Assembly: GCA_016933745.1 (NCBI GenBank)
Contig: JAFGAK010000125.1
Span: forward strand, 1 to 52,938
Origin: Bacteroidales bacterium
GTDB taxonomy: Bacteria; Bacteroidota; Bacteroidia; Bacteroidales; UBA12170
DNA length: 52,938 bases
Direction: 5' to 3'
Part shown: positions 22,933 to 30,147 of the stretch, piece by piece
How the letters are laid out: each line of letters begins with the position of its first letter
Position numbering within the stretch: the first letter of the stretch is position 1
Position numbers and translations under genes: made by a program
Notes under the pieces: model-generated
The model's input: only the letters and a program-made list of their open reading frames with translations
What the model was told of the DNA's origin: nothing
Database searches by the model: none

Positions 22933-23430
22933 ATGAGAAAAAATAGTGTGCATTTCTTTATAAATAAATGGATCAGAATTATTGCCTTTGCTTGGATTGG
23001 GATTGTTGCAATATCATGCGATCGAAATCGTTACTATGAAGAAAATGTGGCCATTACTAATGAAAACTGGTTTTATCAAGATGCAAAGACATTTGAACTC
23101 GAAATGTTAGATACGTTGAGTCCTTTTAATTTTTATCTAAATGTTAGAAATACAATCGATTATAAATATGCTAATTTGTATTTCTTTATTCAAACAGATT
23201 TGCCTAATGGGACCAAAGCCATTGATACAATCGAATGTCAATTGGCTAATTACGAAGGAAAATGGTTAGGAAGTGGACACGGAAAATTTAGAGATAATCA
23301 ATTTATCCTACGTAAAAACATGCAATTTCAGCAATCAGGAAAATATCGGTTTTCACTCCGTCAAGGAATGCGCGAAGACAGCTTGAAAGGAATTGTTGAT
23401 GTTGGAATTCGATTAGAAAAAGCATATTAA
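22933..23430 (+). CDS. gldH: Gliding motility lipoprotein GldH
   Basis: Lipobox (AISC-DRNRYYEEN), DLPNGTKAIDTIECQLANYEGKWLGSGHGKFRDNQFILRKNMQFQQSGKYRFSLRQGMREDSLKGIVDVGIRLEK. Confidence 0.9.
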   Translation: MRKNSVHFFINKWIRIIAFAWIGIVAISCDRNRYYEENVAITNENWFYQDAKTFELEMLDTLSPFNFYLNVRNTIDYKYANLYFFIQTDLPNGTKAIDTIECQLANYEGKWLGSGHGKFRDNQFILRKNMQFQQSGKYRFSLRQGMREDSLKGIVDVGIRLEKAY

Positions 23431-23448
23431 TAAAGAACACTGAATCAG

Positions 23449-25731
23449 ATGAGTGTGAAAAAAAATACCAAAACAAAGGGGAAATCTGAGGCAAAAAAGC
23501 CGGGGTTTCTTAAGTGGTTGTTGATTTTGTGGGGAGGATTTTTCCTTAGCATTTTTCTTCTTTTTGGACTGTTTGTTTTAATATCCAATGGTTATTTAGG
23601 CAAAATGCCAAGCTTCGAAGAATTGGAAAATCCGGAATCTTCTCAAGCTTCGCTTATTTTTGCTGATGATGGTCGATTATTGGGTTCCTATTTTATCGAA
23701 AATCGATCAGATGTTGATTTTAGAGACTTATCGCCCAACTTAGTAAATGCACTTATTGCCACCGAAGATATACGATTTTATCAGCATCCCGGTATTGATT
23801 TTAAAGCAATGGGGCGAGTGCTTGTTGGTGTAATTACCGGCTCCTTAAAAGGTGGAGGTTCTACCATTACGCAACAGCTTGCAAAACTCCTTTTTACCGA
23901 AGAACCCGGCTCAAGCTTGCTTCGTGTGAAACAAAAATTGAACGAATGGGTGATAGCGGTTAAATTGGAGAAGAGCTATTCAAAAGAAGAAATTATTGCC
24001 ATGTATTTGAATAAATACGATTTTATTAATAATGCAGATGGAATACAAACTGCTGCGCGTGTTTATTTTGGTACAACTCCAGATTCTCTCACTTTAACTC
24101 AATCGGCTACTTTAGTGGGGATGTTGCAGAATTCTTCCTTGTACAATCCTTTCCGTCGTCCTGAATTAGTTACGCAACGCCGGAATGTCGTTCTCGGACA
24201 AATGTATCGCAACGATTTTATCGATGAAATAACTTACGATTCAGCCATTGTTCAACCGCTTGCTCTAAATGTAAATAAACAAGGACATGACCAAGGTTTA
24301 GCCAGCTATTTTAGAGAGTATTTACGTGGATATCTTACCGATTGGGCTTCGGAAAATTTAAAACCCGATGGAACACCCTATAACCTATATCGAGATGGTT
24401 TGCGAATTTATACTACCGTTAATTACGATATGCAGGTTTATGCCGAAGCTGCTGTAAAAGAGCATCTAGGAAAAGACTTACAGCCGTCTTTTTATCGCCA
24501 TTGGAAGGGATATACCAATGGTCCATTCGATTTTGAGAATGATGCTGTTCAGGAAATTCAAAAAATATTGAATACGGCAAAAAAACGATCGGAACGTTAT
24601 CGTTTAATGAAAAAAGCAGGTTATTCAAACGACTCGATCGATATTGCTTTTAAAACACCAACTCCAATGACGCTTTTTTCGTGGAATGGAGATATTGATA
24701 CCGTATTAACACCAATGGATAGTATCCGATATTATAAAGGTATTTTGCAAGCCGGATTGATGTCGGTGCAGCCACAAACCGGACAAGTGAAAGCCTATGT
24801 GGGAGGAATTGATTATCGTTATTTTAAATACGATCACGTGACTCAAGCAAAAAGGCAAGTGGGATCAACATTCAAACCAATTGTTTATTCGCTGGCAATG
24901 CAAGAAGGAAATATGTCGCCTTGTAGCAAAATGGCCAATGTGCAGCCAATGATTCGTTTGCCCGACGGAACTTTTTGGAAACCGAAAAATTCAAATTCCA
25001 AATTTGAAGGGAGCGAAGTTACATTGAAATGGGCACTGGCAAATTCAATCAATTGGATTTCAGCGCAATTAATTGATAAATACAATCCGGCAGCTGTAGT
25101 AAAAATGGCCCGAAACTTAGGAATCACAAGTTATATTCCTCCGCTGCATGCAATTGCATTGGGAACTCCGGATATCTCGCTTTACGAAATGGTGGGAGCC
25201 ATGTCCACTTTTGCAAATAAAGGCGTTCATATGAAACCAATCTTTATTACTCGTATCGAAGATAAAAACGGAAATGTATTGGAGCGCTTTACACCTGAAT
25301 CCAACGAAGCAATGAGCGAAGAAACGGCTTATTTAATGCTATCTTTGATGAAAGGTGTGGTGGAAAGTGGAACAGGAGTTCGATTGAAATACACTTACGG
25401 GTTTACAAATCCAATTGCGGGAAAAACCGGTACAACACAAAATCAATCCGATGGTTGGTTTATGGGAATTACACCTAAGTTAATGACTGGAGTTTGGGTT
25501 GGAGCAGAAGACCGCTCCGTGCATTTTAGGACGATTACCGAAGGACAAGGAGCAAATATGGCGCTTCCAATTTGGGCTCTATTTATGAAAGCGGTTTATG
25601 CTGATAAAAAAATCGATTTGTATCAAGGTGATTTCGAAAAACCGCTAAAACCTTTATCTGTGGAAATTGATTGTGATGTGTACGACGCCCAACATCGAAA
25701 GAAAATATTTGAGAAAACAAGCGATTTTTAA
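23449..25731 (+). CDS. Penicillin-binding protein 1A-type bifunctional transglycosylase/transpeptidase
   Basis: GT51 motifs ATEDIRFYQHPGID, GGSTITQQLAKLLF; transpeptidase motifs KRQVGSTFKPIVYSLAM, SINW, KTGTTQNQSDGWFMG. Confidence 0.95.
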   Translation: MSVKKNTKTKGKSEAKKPGFLKWLLILWGGFFLSIFLLFGLFVLISNGYLGKMPSFEELENPESSQASLIFADDGRLLGSYFIENRSDVDFRDLSPNLVNALIATEDIRFYQHPGIDFKAMGRVLVGVITGSLKGGGSTITQQLAKLLFTEEPGSSLLRVKQKLNEWVIAVKLEKSYSKEEIIAMYLNKYDFINNADGIQTAARVYFGTTPDSLTLTQSATLVGMLQNSSLYNPFRRPELVTQRRNVVLGQMYRNDFIDEITYDSAIVQPLALNVNKQGHDQGLASYFREYLRGYLTDWASENLKPDGTPYNLYRDGLRIYTTVNYDMQVYAEAAVKEHLGKDLQPSFYRHWKGYTNGPFDFENDAVQEIQKILNTAKKRSERYRLMKKAGYSNDSIDIAFKTPTPMTLFSWNGDIDTVLTPMDSIRYYKGILQAGLMSVQPQTGQVKAYVGGIDYRYFKYDHVTQAKRQVGSTFKPIVYSLAMQEGNMSPCSKMANVQPMIRLPDGTFWKPKNSNSKFEGSEVTLKWALANSINWISAQLIDKYNPAAVVKMARNLGITSYIPPLHAIALGTPDISLYEMVGAMSTFANKGVHMKPIFITRIEDKNGNVLERFTPESNEAMSEETAYLMLSLMKGVVESGTGVRLKYTYGFTNPIAGKTGTTQNQSDGWFMGITPKLMTGVWVGAEDRSVHFRTITEGQGANMALPIWALFMKAVYADKKIDLYQGDFEKPLKPLSVEIDCDVYDAQHRKKIFEKTSDF

Positions 25732-25763: not shown

Positions 25764-26444
25764 ATGGAAGACAAATGGAATCTGTTTCAGAAGTTTTTAA
25801 TTACTGAAAATGCAAATATCTCGATTTACGATTTTCTGATTAACTCCGCAGTAGTAGTGGTTTTGTCGATACTTCTTGACTTTACCTATCGTAAATGCGG
25901 CACTAGTTTGTCAAACAAAAAAGGTTTTGCTAGCAATTTTATCTTATTGGCTTTCACAACCATGCTGATTATCACCATTGTAAAATCTTCACTTGCTTTA
26001 TCTTTGGGATTGGTGGGTGCACTATCCATCGTTCGATTTAGAGCAGCAATTAAAGAGCCCGAAGAGTTAGCTTATTTGTTTATTGCTATCGCGATCGGTT
26101 TGGGTTTAGGCGCGAATCAAACACTTATTGTTTTACTTGCTTTTTTGATTTTGATGATCATTCTTTGGGGCCGATTTTTACTTACCAACAAGCAACAAAC
26201 TCAGAATTTATTTCTAAATCTTAGTGTGGATAACGCTACTGATTTTGATCTAGAAAAATTAAATACATTGGTTGCTAAGCATTTTGGCCACTTTCGGATG
26301 AAACGTTACGATAAGTCTATGAATATGGTGGAAGTGGCTTTTTTTGTTGAACTTAAAAAAACGGATGCCATTCAAGCTTTTCAAACAGATTTAGCTGCTA
26401 ACTCTTGGAAGTTTCATTTGAGTTTTCTTGATCAAGAACTTTAA
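25764..26444 (+). CDS. DUF4956 family membrane protein
   Basis: Conserved segment LALSLGLVGALSIVRFRAAIKEPEELAYLFIAIAIGLGLGANQTLI with several TM helices. Confidence 0.88.
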   Translation: MEDKWNLFQKFLITENANISIYDFLINSAVVVVLSILLDFTYRKCGTSLSNKKGFASNFILLAFTTMLIITIVKSSLALSLGLVGALSIVRFRAAIKEPEELAYLFIAIAIGLGLGANQTLIVLLAFLILMIILWGRFLLTNKQQTQNLFLNLSVDNATDFDLEKLNTLVAKHFGHFRMKRYDKSMNMVEVAFFVELKKTDAIQAFQTDLAANSWKFHLSFLDQEL

Positions 26445-26449
26445 ACCTA

Positions 26450-27151
26450 ATGACGGCTTTTTTTGAGCATAATCACACAAGATATGAGCGTAAGTTTGTA
26501 GTCGAAGGAAAAGGCAGAGCTTACGGCGAAATGCTTATTAAGCAAAATCCGGCAAATTTTCATCCCATTTTTCAACTTCGGTCAATCAATAATATTTATT
26601 TTGACACGACTAGATTCAAAAATTATTCTGATAATTTTGAAGGAAATAGCAATCGGCAAAAAATTAGAATTCGTTGGTATGGAAATACGTTCGGATACAT
26701 TAAAAATCCGATTTTAGAATTTAAAATTAAAAGGGGAGAACTAGGAATTAAAAAATCATTTCCGCTTCCTGACTTTACTTTGGAATCAGGATTTAACGCT
26801 TTCCAATTTGAAAAATATTTCGAACAAGCCGACTTACCTACTGCGATTCTGGAAATCATGAAATCGCAAGCTCCACGCTTATTAAATACGTATCAACGAA
26901 CCTATTTCAGATCTTTTGATCATGCTTTTCGTTTTACAGTGGATGATCAATTGGAGTACCGCAGTTTTAGGAATCAAAACAATCAATTCTTGGAAATAAT
27001 CAAGGATGACAATAAGATTATCTTGGAATTGAAATACGAGCAGAAATTTGGAAACAATGCCGCTTTCATTACCAATTCCTTGCCGTTACGATTGAATAAA
27101 TTCTCCAAATATATTGCCGGACTAGAATTGCTAAAATCAGGATTTATATAA
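26450..27151 (+). CDS. VTC domain-containing putative polyphosphate polymerase
   Basis: RYERKFVVEG, INNIYFDTTRFKNY, RQKIRIRWYG, ILEFKIKRGELGIKKSF, TYQRTYF, IILELKYEQ, KFSKYIAGLEL: VTC/TTM-tunnel motifs. Confidence 0.87.
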   Translation: MTAFFEHNHTRYERKFVVEGKGRAYGEMLIKQNPANFHPIFQLRSINNIYFDTTRFKNYSDNFEGNSNRQKIRIRWYGNTFGYIKNPILEFKIKRGELGIKKSFPLPDFTLESGFNAFQFEKYFEQADLPTAILEIMKSQAPRLLNTYQRTYFRSFDHAFRFTVDDQLEYRSFRNQNNQFLEIIKDDNKIILELKYEQKFGNNAAFITNSLPLRLNKFSKYIAGLELLKSGFI

Positions 27152-27153
27152 CG

Positions 27154-30147
27154 ATGAAAGGTTTAAAAGCAATCGGAATATATCTTGCATTTGCACTTGC
27201 TTTCAGTGCTTGCACGCTTCAACCTGAAACAAAAAATGCGGAGGTTAAATTCAGTTGTGATGCTGAATTGATAGACTCTACGGGTAAATTTCTCTTGGGT
27301 GATTCGGCAAATAAACAGATCGCATTTGAATTGGGCGGAACGCATTCACTTGAATATTCAAAAAGTGGTAAATATGCTGTAAAAGTAGATGCAAAAAAGG
27401 CCTATGCCTTAACGTTCAAATTGAAATCTTTAAAAGGGAATGAGCGGTATAAAGCAAGTATTTGGCGTTACGATCCAAGTGGAAAATCAGCTCTAGTAGT
27501 TGCCGGAAACAAAACACATATGCTCTATAAAGCGCAAAAAGAACCTGCTTTTAGAACCAAAAATGGATGGGAATTGCTGGAAGTTGAATTTGATATTACA
27601 CCTGCTCTAGACTACGTGAAAATTTACGCTTGGCGCATTGATGCAGATTCTGCTTGGTTCGATGATTTATCGATTGAACAATTGCCCCAGATTGAATATC
27701 CATCTTATAGCGACCAAGCAAAATTGCACCTGTATTTTCAGGAAACCGATTGGCAGATTTTAGAAAATACGCGTAAACGTGCTTTTTTAGAAGGGATTTT
27801 AGTTCAAAACGAAAGCGATTGGGCCACCGGAATTTTATCGGATGAACTTGATGTTTTACCCGTAAAAGCCAGATTAAAAGGCGATTGGTTAGATCATCTT
27901 GAAGGGGTGAAGTGGTCGTATCGAATTAAAATGCGAAAAGATAAACGATTCAATGGATTACAGGTGTTTTCGTTGCAGAGTCCGGAAACTAGATCTTTTT
28001 TAAGCGAATATTTGGCGCATACACTTTTTCTTGAGAATCAAGTATTAAGCACAAAATACGAATTTACTCCTTTGTATGTAAATGGCCAAAGTAGAGGAAT
28101 TTACGCTTTGGAAGAGCATTTTACGAAACAATTAGTCGAAGCAAATCAACGTCGCGAAGGCATTATCGTACGGTTTAATGAAGAAGCGTTTTGGGGAATT
28201 CAGAAATATTTGAAACTAGAGAATAAATGGTATGTGTTGCCTTATTTTCAAGCATCTTTGGTGGAGAGTTTTCAAAGTTCAAAAGCTTTGGCAGAACCTT
28301 TGATGAAAACTCAGTTTTCGATTGCTCAATCGTTGATGTATCAATACAAAAATCATATCAAACCGATTGATCAAGTATTTGATATCGATAAATTTGCGAA
28401 ATATTGGGCTTTGGTGGATCTTACTAAAGCTCGACATGGGATGGCTTGGCATAACCAGAGGTTTTATTACAATCCGATTTTGTGTTTGCTCGAACCAATT
28501 GCTTTTGATGCCTATATGGGAGCAATGGTAATGTATAAAGAAGATCGAAGTATATTTGGAAATATGTGGTTTCCCGATAATGCTGTGGTTGCTCTTAATG
28601 ATGAGCTATTGTATAAAATATTTCAGGACGAACAATTCCAAGAGAAATATCTTCAGTATCTTAAACTCTATTCCGATCCATCATTCGTATCCGATTTTTT
28701 AGCTGAACATCGAGAAGAAATTCAAAAAAATGAAAACTTAATCCGCGAGGAATATCCGGAGTATAAATACGACCGAACTTTTCTCGTTTCTAATGCAAAT
28801 CAAATTAGAACGGAATTACCACTTTACAAAAATCGTTTGGCTTCCGGCGTAATTCAAAGTTATCTTCAAAAAGCGCAAGTATTAACCATTGATACGCTTT
28901 ACCGAAAAGATTTGGCTCCTTTATTTGTAAACGCTTTTGTTTATAAAGATGACGGTGGAATTCGAATGTTTGAAGCTGAAAATTACTATGGTCGTTCGAT
29001 TCAACTTGTCGGACTAAGCGATAAACAGAATCGTATTCGCATCGAAATTCCTTCCGAAAAAAGCAATTTAAATCCATATCAATTAGGCACCAATGTAATT
29101 TCCTTTCCAATTGGAAACGACTCCACAATTACTCATTTAGCTTTTAGGGTTGACGGAAAAACAGAATTACTTTATACTTCTTTGCATCCTTGGCAAAAGA
29201 AAATGATTAATACACCGCGACAAGAATTGCTAAACTCCAATGTATATCAATCGGGAGAATTATTTGCAGAAAAAGGCGATACACTTATCTTGGAAAAAGG
29301 AAATTATCAACTCAAAAAACTCCTGCTAATTCCAGCCAATAAGTTCATTGTTTTTGAAAAAGGAGTGGAGTTGGACATGGTTAATGGCGGTGGAATTCTT
29401 TTCTTTTCGCCCATTTATATGAACGGAAGAGAACAGGAGCCAATTCGTATTTTTTCGAGCGATTCCACAAGTCTGGGATTTGGTATTTTGCAAGCTTCCA
29501 AGGAAAGTACGCTTACTCATGTGAGTTTTGAAGGATTGAAGAATTTCGCTTATAAAGGTTGGGAATTAACGGGTTGTGTTAACTTTTACGAGTCGGATGT
29601 GCAAATGTCTTTTGTTCACTTTAAGAATAACCATAGCGAAGACGCTTTAAATATTGTTCGTTCTGAATTTCGTATAGATCATGCTTCTTTTGAGAATATT
29701 TCGAGCGATGCATTTGATGGAGATTTTGTGCATGGACAAGTCAACAATTCTACTTTCGAAAATATTACGAACGATGCTTTGGACTTTTCCGGCTCTCAAG
29801 TTACTGTGAATGATTGTAAGATTAATCATGCGGGTGATAAAGGAATTAGTGCCGGAGAAAATTCACAGCTGGTGGTGAATAGGATTCGGATCGAAAATGG
29901 AAATATTGGAATGGCATCCAAAGATTGGTCGCGCATCGAAGCCACCGGTGTGGAATTAGAGGGTTTGAATTATGGCTTACTCGTTTTTCAAAAAAAACCG
30001 GAATATAGCTCGGCAGAAATGTACATCGATAAAGTGAACTTCAAGCAAATCAAATACAATTATCTGATCGAAATAAATTCAAAATTTAGGCTAAATGAGC
30101 GTGTGATTATTGGAAATCAGAAGAAATTAGCCGAAAAGTTTTATTGA
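27154..30147 (+). CDS. CotH kinase-like lipoprotein with N-terminal sugar-binding-like region and C-terminal right-handed beta-helix
   Basis: Lipobox ALAFSAC; CotH-like VKARLKGDWLDHLEGVKWSYRIKMRKDKRFNGLQVFSLQSPETRSFLSEYLAHTLF...YVNGQSRGIYALEEHFTKQLVEANQRREGIIVRFNEE; C-terminal NISSDAFDGDFVHGQVNNSTFENITNDALDFSGSQVTVNDCKINHAGDKGISAGENSQ repeats. Confidence 0.82.
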   Translation: MKGLKAIGIYLAFALAFSACTLQPETKNAEVKFSCDAELIDSTGKFLLGDSANKQIAFELGGTHSLEYSKSGKYAVKVDAKKAYALTFKLKSLKGNERYKASIWRYDPSGKSALVVAGNKTHMLYKAQKEPAFRTKNGWELLEVEFDITPALDYVKIYAWRIDADSAWFDDLSIEQLPQIEYPSYSDQAKLHLYFQETDWQILENTRKRAFLEGILVQNESDWATGILSDELDVLPVKARLKGDWLDHLEGVKWSYRIKMRKDKRFNGLQVFSLQSPETRSFLSEYLAHTLFLENQVLSTKYEFTPLYVNGQSRGIYALEEHFTKQLVEANQRREGIIVRFNEEAFWGIQKYLKLENKWYVLPYFQASLVESFQSSKALAEPLMKTQFSIAQSLMYQYKNHIKPIDQVFDIDKFAKYWALVDLTKARHGMAWHNQRFYYNPILCLLEPIAFDAYMGAMVMYKEDRSIFGNMWFPDNAVVALNDELLYKIFQDEQFQEKYLQYLKLYSDPSFVSDFLAEHREEIQKNENLIREEYPEYKYDRTFLVSNANQIRTELPLYKNRLASGVIQSYLQKAQVLTIDTLYRKDLAPLFVNAFVYKDDGGIRMFEAENYYGRSIQLVGLSDKQNRIRIEIPSEKSNLNPYQLGTNVISFPIGNDSTITHLAFRVDGKTELLYTSLHPWQKKMINTPRQELLNSNVYQSGELFAEKGDTLILEKGNYQLKKLLLIPANKFIVFEKGVELDMVNGGGILFFSPIYMNGREQEPIRIFSSDSTSLGFGILQASKESTLTHVSFEGLKNFAYKGWELTGCVNFYESDVQMSFVHFKNNHSEDALNIVRSEFRIDHASFENISSDAFDGDFVHGQVNNSTFENITNDALDFSGSQVTVNDCKINHAGDKGISAGENSQLVVNRIRIENGNIGMASKDWSRIEATGVELEGLNYGLLVFQKKPEYSSAEMYIDKVNFKQIKYNYLIEINSKFRLNERVIIGNQKKLAEKFY

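Follow-up and report, generated by a model that had tools for sequence, protein, structure and literature searches.

The window analysed here is the whole 52,938-nucleotide stretch of contig JAFGAK010000125.1, which comes from a fragmented Bacteroidales metagenome-assembled genome (2.45 Mb, 76% complete). The three open reading frames of interest, all on the + strand, encode proteins of 226, 233 and 997 amino acids (aa) in the order DUF4956 membrane protein, VTC-domain protein and CotH/beta-helix lipoprotein (Table 1). The DUF4956 and VTC genes are separated by 5 nucleotides (nt) (26444 to 26450) and the VTC and lipoprotein genes by 2 nt (27151 to 27154), in exact agreement with the 2-5 bp gaps that an earlier note on this DNA (the sequence-only reading) had described.

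Table 1. Coordinates of the three genes and of the features mapped on the lipoprotein.
Feature	Position	Strand	Basis
DUF4956 membrane protein, 226 aa	25764..26444	+	Pfam PF16316 2.2e-15; alignment; AlphaFold model; Foldseek
VTC-domain protein, 233 aa	26450..27151	+	Pfam PF09359 1.6e-26; alignment; profile match to yeast Vtc4
CotH/beta-helix lipoprotein, 997 aa	27154..30147	+	Pfam; alignment of 20 relatives; AlphaFold; Foldseek
Lipoprotein signal peptide with lipobox (FSA-C20), residues 1-20	27154..27213	+	read from translation
N-terminal beta-sandwich, CBM-like, residues ~30-180	27241..27693	+	weak CBM_4_9 match; Foldseek CBM16 and other CBMs
CotH-fold domain, residues 241-539	27874..28770	+	Pfam PF08757 1.7e-13; hhalign 98.9%
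His428 codon, place of B. subtilis CotH Asp228	28435..28437	+	His in 105/107 family members
Asp452 codon, equivalent of B. subtilis CotH Asp251	28507..28509	+	Asp in 105/107 family members, 15/15 of comparison set
Right-handed beta-helix, residues ~700-985	29251..30108	+	Pfam Beta_helix 1.5e-6; model secondary structure; Foldseek

The VTC protein belongs by sequence to the VTC-type family. Its Pfam match spans profile positions 2-234 of 235, and neither a signal peptide nor a membrane segment was seen. The family profile matched the yeast Vtc4 structures 3g3q/8i6v (1.1e-7), and the profile alignment placed K15, R73, R75, K92, R150, R161 and K220 on Vtc4 K200, R264, R266, K281, R361, R373 and K458, respectively. 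All of these residues are invariant in the VTC family alignment, which upholds the intact polyphosphate (polyP) polymerase motifs noticed in the sequence-only reading. K458 is the catalytic Lys of Vtc4 (PMC4641920), and an R264A/R266A/E426N mutant served to inactivate the yeast VTC complex (PMC9911596). E426 lies beyond the reach of the profile alignment, and the invariant E193 is its likely counterpart. R11, at the first basic position, is basic as in Vtc4 and is also invariant. We therefore predict that the VTC protein is a cytosolic polyP polymerase. It is improbable that the protein is instead a hydrolase of the triphosphate-tunnel type or some other enzyme acting on nucleotides, which would give the trio a different chemistry: its Glu13, two positions before Lys15, does stand at one acidic-patch position of the triphosphate tunnel metalloenzyme hydrolases, where Vtc4 has no Glu, and the tunnel enzymes are functionally broad (PMC4641920), but R11 and the equivalent of the catalytic Lys458 are invariant and Pfam assigns the protein to VTC and not to CYTH. 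PPK1 is encoded in the same genome, as it is in 9 of the 21 tested carriers of the lipoprotein family, so polyP may have a source other than the VTC protein, and bulk polyP storage need not be the role of VTC.

In the AlphaFold model of the DUF4956 protein (pLDDT 79, from 13 sequences), a ferredoxin/ACT-like beta-alpha-beta-beta-alpha-beta domain (residues ~147-223) comes after four to five helices. R91-x-R93 and E101, in the helical part, are invariant in the family alignment. Foldseek returned weak matches (E about 0.01) for the C-terminal part, mostly to ferredoxin-like, ACT and PII-like folds and including the MgtC C-terminal domain 2lqj. The comparison with Pfam MgtC was not significant (0.96), and the modelled layout of helices and C-terminal domain fits the MgtC topology. 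A search of PDB sequences with the DUF4956 profile gave no match. The streptococcal DUF4956 homologue has been given a similar MgtC/ACT description (PMC12345266).

The lipoprotein is assigned by homology to a large Bacteroidota family. Scanning bacterial genomes gave at least 457 relatives, and the 79 loci that were kept lie in records whose labels include Bacteroidales, Flavobacteriales, Saprospiraceae and Prolixibacteraceae, L153 and L158 being from the cultured relatives Puteibacter caeruleilacunae JC036 and Prolixibacteraceae JC049; with the 997-aa protein as query, strong relatives (E < 1e-70) were found in 21 of 198 Bacteroidales genomes. The export signal is legible in the translation (MKGLKAIGIYLAFALAFSA-C20, with Cys20 as the lipobox Cys), and a lipobox-like motif is present in 57 of the 76 long members of the family, most of the others having a plain hydrophobic N-terminal helix. 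The full-length AlphaFold model reached a pLDDT of 88 and a pTM of 0.85, and its best PDB matches in Foldseek were the B. cereus CotH kinase structures 5jd9/5jda (E 1.4e-10, TM 0.68). Aligned by hhalign against canonical CotHs linked to VTC genes, the family alignment (20 sequences) gave a probability of 98.9%. The match to the carbohydrate-binding module (CBM) family CBM_4_9 over residues 70-159 is weak and under the Pfam cut-off (0.0016), and the beta-helix part matched the GH87 and PfbA beta-helices in Foldseek. Fold matches, Pfam and the readable lipobox thus agree with the sequence-only reading, which had seen a lipoprotein joining a CotH-like region to a right-handed beta-helix. The N-terminal beta-sandwich recurs as the C-terminal domain of multi-span proteins of 640-690 aa encoded near related loci (L056:4731-6797, L063:2701-4770, L055:3168-7098, L174:11780 and others). 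These neighbours look weakly GT-C-like, with a PMT_2 match in 2 of 8 members (best value 0.00057), and their membrane part had no match in the PDB.

For the residues of the CotH site, 107 family members were aligned with the VTC-linked canonical CotHs and 5jd9. B. subtilis CotH has two essential Asp residues, and its D228Q and D251A forms are inactive, as PMC7821199 states with reference to earlier work. In the family the place of Asp228 is taken by a His, and the conserved Asn of the site (N434, equivalent to Asn233) is kept in 105 of 107 members. An Asp 4-9 residues ahead of this Asn occurs in 1 of 107 family members versus 12 of 13 canonical CotHs; the count was made across that stretch because loop lengths differ between the two groups. 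Four arginines (R280, R333, R334 and R436) are near-invariant among family members, and canonical CotHs mostly lack them. One of the genome-scan patterns spanned residues near 438-447, where conservation may be partly selected; H428 lies outside all patterns. The sequence-only reading had pointed to the CotH metal/ATP-binding Asp as the residue to look for, and here it stands in part: the Asp251 equivalent is retained (D452) but the Asp228 equivalent is His428. Since this replacement of an essential Asp is near-invariant across the family, a kinase cannot be assumed, and an ordinary CotH kinase was rejected as stated. Judged from these residues, the lipoprotein has the CotH fold but is no standard CotH kinase.

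The same residues could mean that the lipoprotein is a pseudokinase, in a module that exports polyP and in which the CotH-fold protein binds or anchors polyP, glycan or both at the surface and transfers no phosphate. We consider this a lesser possibility. No family member has an Asp in the Asp228 column, and the single exception just counted is an Asp elsewhere in that loop; the D228Q change that inactivates B. subtilis CotH (PMC7821199) affects this position. The family-specific arginines could hold a polyanion, and both the beta-helix and the CBM-like domain have folds of a binding type. However, the replacement His is itself near-invariant, and the retention of the Asn and the second Asp in 105 of 107 members goes beyond the needs of a dead scaffold.

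The sequence-only reading had called for a survey of conserved synteny across Bacteroidota, and linkage was found. A same-strand DUF4956 gene lies within 4 kb of 42 of the 43 VTC matches in 198 Bacteroidota genomes, the exception being a fragment, and within 5 kb of 106 of the 111 in 198 Bacteroidales genomes. VTC comes first in 39 of the 42 pairs of the phylum set and in 87 of the 106 pairs of the order set; the window pair has the reverse order, DUF4956 first, as do 18 other order-level pairs. Full flanks were available for 38 of the 79 lipoprotein-family loci, and 25 of these are linked, 23 to both VTC and DUF4956 within 6 kb and 2 to DUF4956 alone. Among all 79 loci the order is CotH-DUF4956-VTC in 28, DUF4956-VTC-CotH in 5 and DUF4956-CotH-VTC in 4. 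That the linkage persists through reshuffled gene orders argues for a functional association. DUF4956-first pairs occur in 18 of the 198 Bacteroidales genomes, and the lipoprotein family is present in 16 of these 18 versus 5 of the other 180. The resulting table (both 16, single 5 and 2, neither 175) has p=2e-17, and when physically linked genomes are removed (6/5/2/175, the 6 double carriers coming from five families) p=2e-7, both values being descriptive only because shared ancestry inflates them. On the pairing rates and the co-occurrence, chance adjacency of the trio was rejected.

In other Bacteroidota the VTC-DUF4956 pair adjoins a protein of ~356 aa (15 loci) or ~370 aa (6 loci). The ~370-aa protein matches HlyD_3 and EmrA/MacA structures; the ~356-aa protein is related to it in profile comparison (97.3%) and weakly matches EmrA/AcrA-type adaptors. 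HlyD-like adaptors thus stand next to VTC-DUF4956 in 21 loci of the phylum set (L076, L079-L084, L088, L094 and others), and one of them, L094, has an OEP (TolC-type) gene as well. We know of no published description of such genes beside VTC-DUF4956. DUF2490 proteins, which are probably outer-membrane barrels, were found in 13 loci. One of these is a second VTC-DUF4956 pair in the source genome itself (G000:C49, locus L073:9250-11392), which is of the canonical type and is followed by DUF2490, with no CotH. The HlyD/TolC-type neighbours hint, at the genomic level, at export of the product.

Genes for GT2-type glycosyltransferases, MBOAT and AlgX-like proteins lie near the lipoprotein family in 22, 7 and 7 of the 79 loci, respectively, as raw counts. 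Together with the shared CBM-like domain and the Gram-positive Pel loci (PMC7112168), these neighbours are a clue to a glycan link. At 20 of the 79 loci a divergent gene beside the CotH/beta-helix gene encodes a secreted DUF5122 beta-propeller of ~487 aa with a type IX secretion tail (for example L147:4432-5895; the 19 others are among L114-L192).

Pel loci of streptococci, clostridia and bifidobacteria have been described with accessory genes for CotH, a poly-phosphate polymerase and DUF4956 (PMC7112168). The authors of a 2025 paper failed to find the three-gene arrangement beyond the Pel locus (PMC12345266). PelG was above the cut-off in 0 of 198 Bacteroidales genomes, the source genome included, so the loci described here lie outside Pel, contradicting that paper on this point, and membership of the trio in a Pel operon (the pelDEADAFG-linked set) was rejected. 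The published impression is thereby corrected in that the arrangement is not confined to Pel loci. The gene set is not a new kind of system and is a variant, itself new, of the set known from them. The sequence-only reading had held that the co-occurrence is known and that a joint function is not established; the linkage is partly characterised, through the published Pel sets and S. intermedius deletion mutants (PMC7112168, PMC12345266). Our literature searches on VTC and DUF4956 together, and on CotH together with 'VTC domain', retrieved nothing.

In S. intermedius, deletion of the DUF4956 gene raises Pel and deletion of CotH lowers it, and both alter aggregation (PMC12345266). A reading similar to the one given there would make the trio a regulatory module, in which the MgtC-like DUF4956 protein, with its ACT-like domain, responds to phosphate, Mg2+ or a nucleotide by adjusting the synthesis of an envelope polymer, while the VTC protein sets a local polyP signal and there is no export at all. 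The MgtC-like topology of the model is in keeping with this, as is the position of the operon, whose first gene starts at 25764, 32 nt behind a PBP1a gene that ends at 25731. We find it unlikely, however, since the Foldseek matches are weak and cover the ACT-like half only, and the HlyD/TolC and DUF2490 neighbours fit transport better.

The best reading of the trio is a membrane complex for making or moving polyP, as the sequence-only reading had suggested, and it is strengthened by the HlyD/TolC-type neighbours in other Bacteroidota. Going further, we propose tentatively, at somewhat less than even chances, that the operon couples polyP synthesis to export and that the outer lipoprotein acts as an acceptor or transferase on an envelope glycan. 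The basis of this mechanism is architecture, synteny, co-occurrence and residue conservation. The cytosolic VTC protein, given its conserved residues, would polymerise polyP from ATP. DUF4956 would dock the polymerase at the inner membrane, where the growing chain would cross, by analogy with yeast VTC and in view of the HlyD/TolC-type neighbours elsewhere; its ACT-like domain may gate the passage. Outside, the lipid-anchored CotH-fold/beta-helix protein would receive polyP or phosphate, and an envelope glycan or glycoconjugate held by the CBM-like and beta-helix domains would be what it binds this to or transfers it onto. Several points weigh against this proposal. The window-type loci have neither an HlyD nor a TolC gene, and about a third of the fully flanked lipoprotein-family loci are without linked VTC/DUF4956. 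DUF4956 looks more like MgtC, which is a regulator or sensor, than like the DUF202 channel of yeast, and the VTC protein carries the hydrolase-like Glu13. To our knowledge, biochemical evidence exists for no bacterial VTC protein, and neither the VTC nor the DUF4956 proteins of bacteria have an established function. Finally, no change of aggregation or Pel was reported on deletion of the S. intermedius polymerase (PMC12345266).

In a more specific version, which is a long shot, polyP moved out by VTC-DUF4956 would be an ATP-independent phosphate donor with which the CotH-fold lipoprotein phosphorylates envelope glycans through a His-based site and the extra arginines, making it a polyP-powered extracytoplasmic phosphotransferase. 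Little is established about the ways in which molecules beyond the cytosol, where ATP is scarce, are phosphorylated or decorated by bacteria. The linkage of the trio across Bacteroidota suggests that internally made polyP is passed on to the envelope, and the lipoprotein family with VTC-DUF4956 offers a compact, widespread test case, which predicts polyP beyond the inner membrane and a His428-dependent activity.

Four known arrangements resemble the trio. The accessory genes of Gram-positive Pel loci, such as S. intermedius SIR_1592-1594, are adjacent genes for the same three families, namely a secreted CotH, an MgtC/ACT-type membrane protein and a predicted polyP polymerase (PMC7112168, PMC12345266); the window trio stands without Pel genes, and its CotH is beta-helix-fused and lipid-anchored, with the catalytic Asp replaced by His. 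The yeast VTC complex shares the tunnel-domain polymerase, the same basic residues and a paired membrane partner (PMC9911596), but the window polymerase is a separate, soluble protein without SPX, and its partner is unrelated (DUF4956 and not a VTC1-type domain). The Bacillus CotH spore-coat kinase has the same fold and the Asn233 and Asp251 equivalents; the window protein differs in its His for Asp228 and in being an exported lipoprotein with beta-sandwich and beta-helix, with no spore coat involved. Lastly, loci of other Bacteroidota with an HlyD-like adaptor or DUF2490 have the same VTC-DUF4956 core, often with CotH near; they are usually VTC-first with canonical CotHs, whereas the window operon is DUF4956-first and without adaptor or DUF2490.

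Promoter and terminator scans gave signal no higher than in shuffled sequence. A plasmid-borne origin was rejected, no relative having been found in the plasmid collection. Upstream of the trio are genes for a PSP1-like protein, GldH and PBP1a, the gliding lipoprotein GldH and PBP1a (22933-25731) being directly 5' of it; downstream are a convergent gene for a VTT-domain protein and then a MurF/Alr fusion. In a second genome of the genus, PSP1-GldH-PBP1a-DUF4956-VTC runs to the end of a contig and CotH-VTT-MurF/Alr-PdxA is on a separate one, the break falling between VTC and CotH, which is consistent with the gene order of the window split by assembly. Several related loci in other genomes also have PBP1a and MurF/Alr as neighbours. 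In L123, L131, L145, L163, L176 and L180, the CotH/beta-helix gene is duplicated within the locus, in tandem or nearby.

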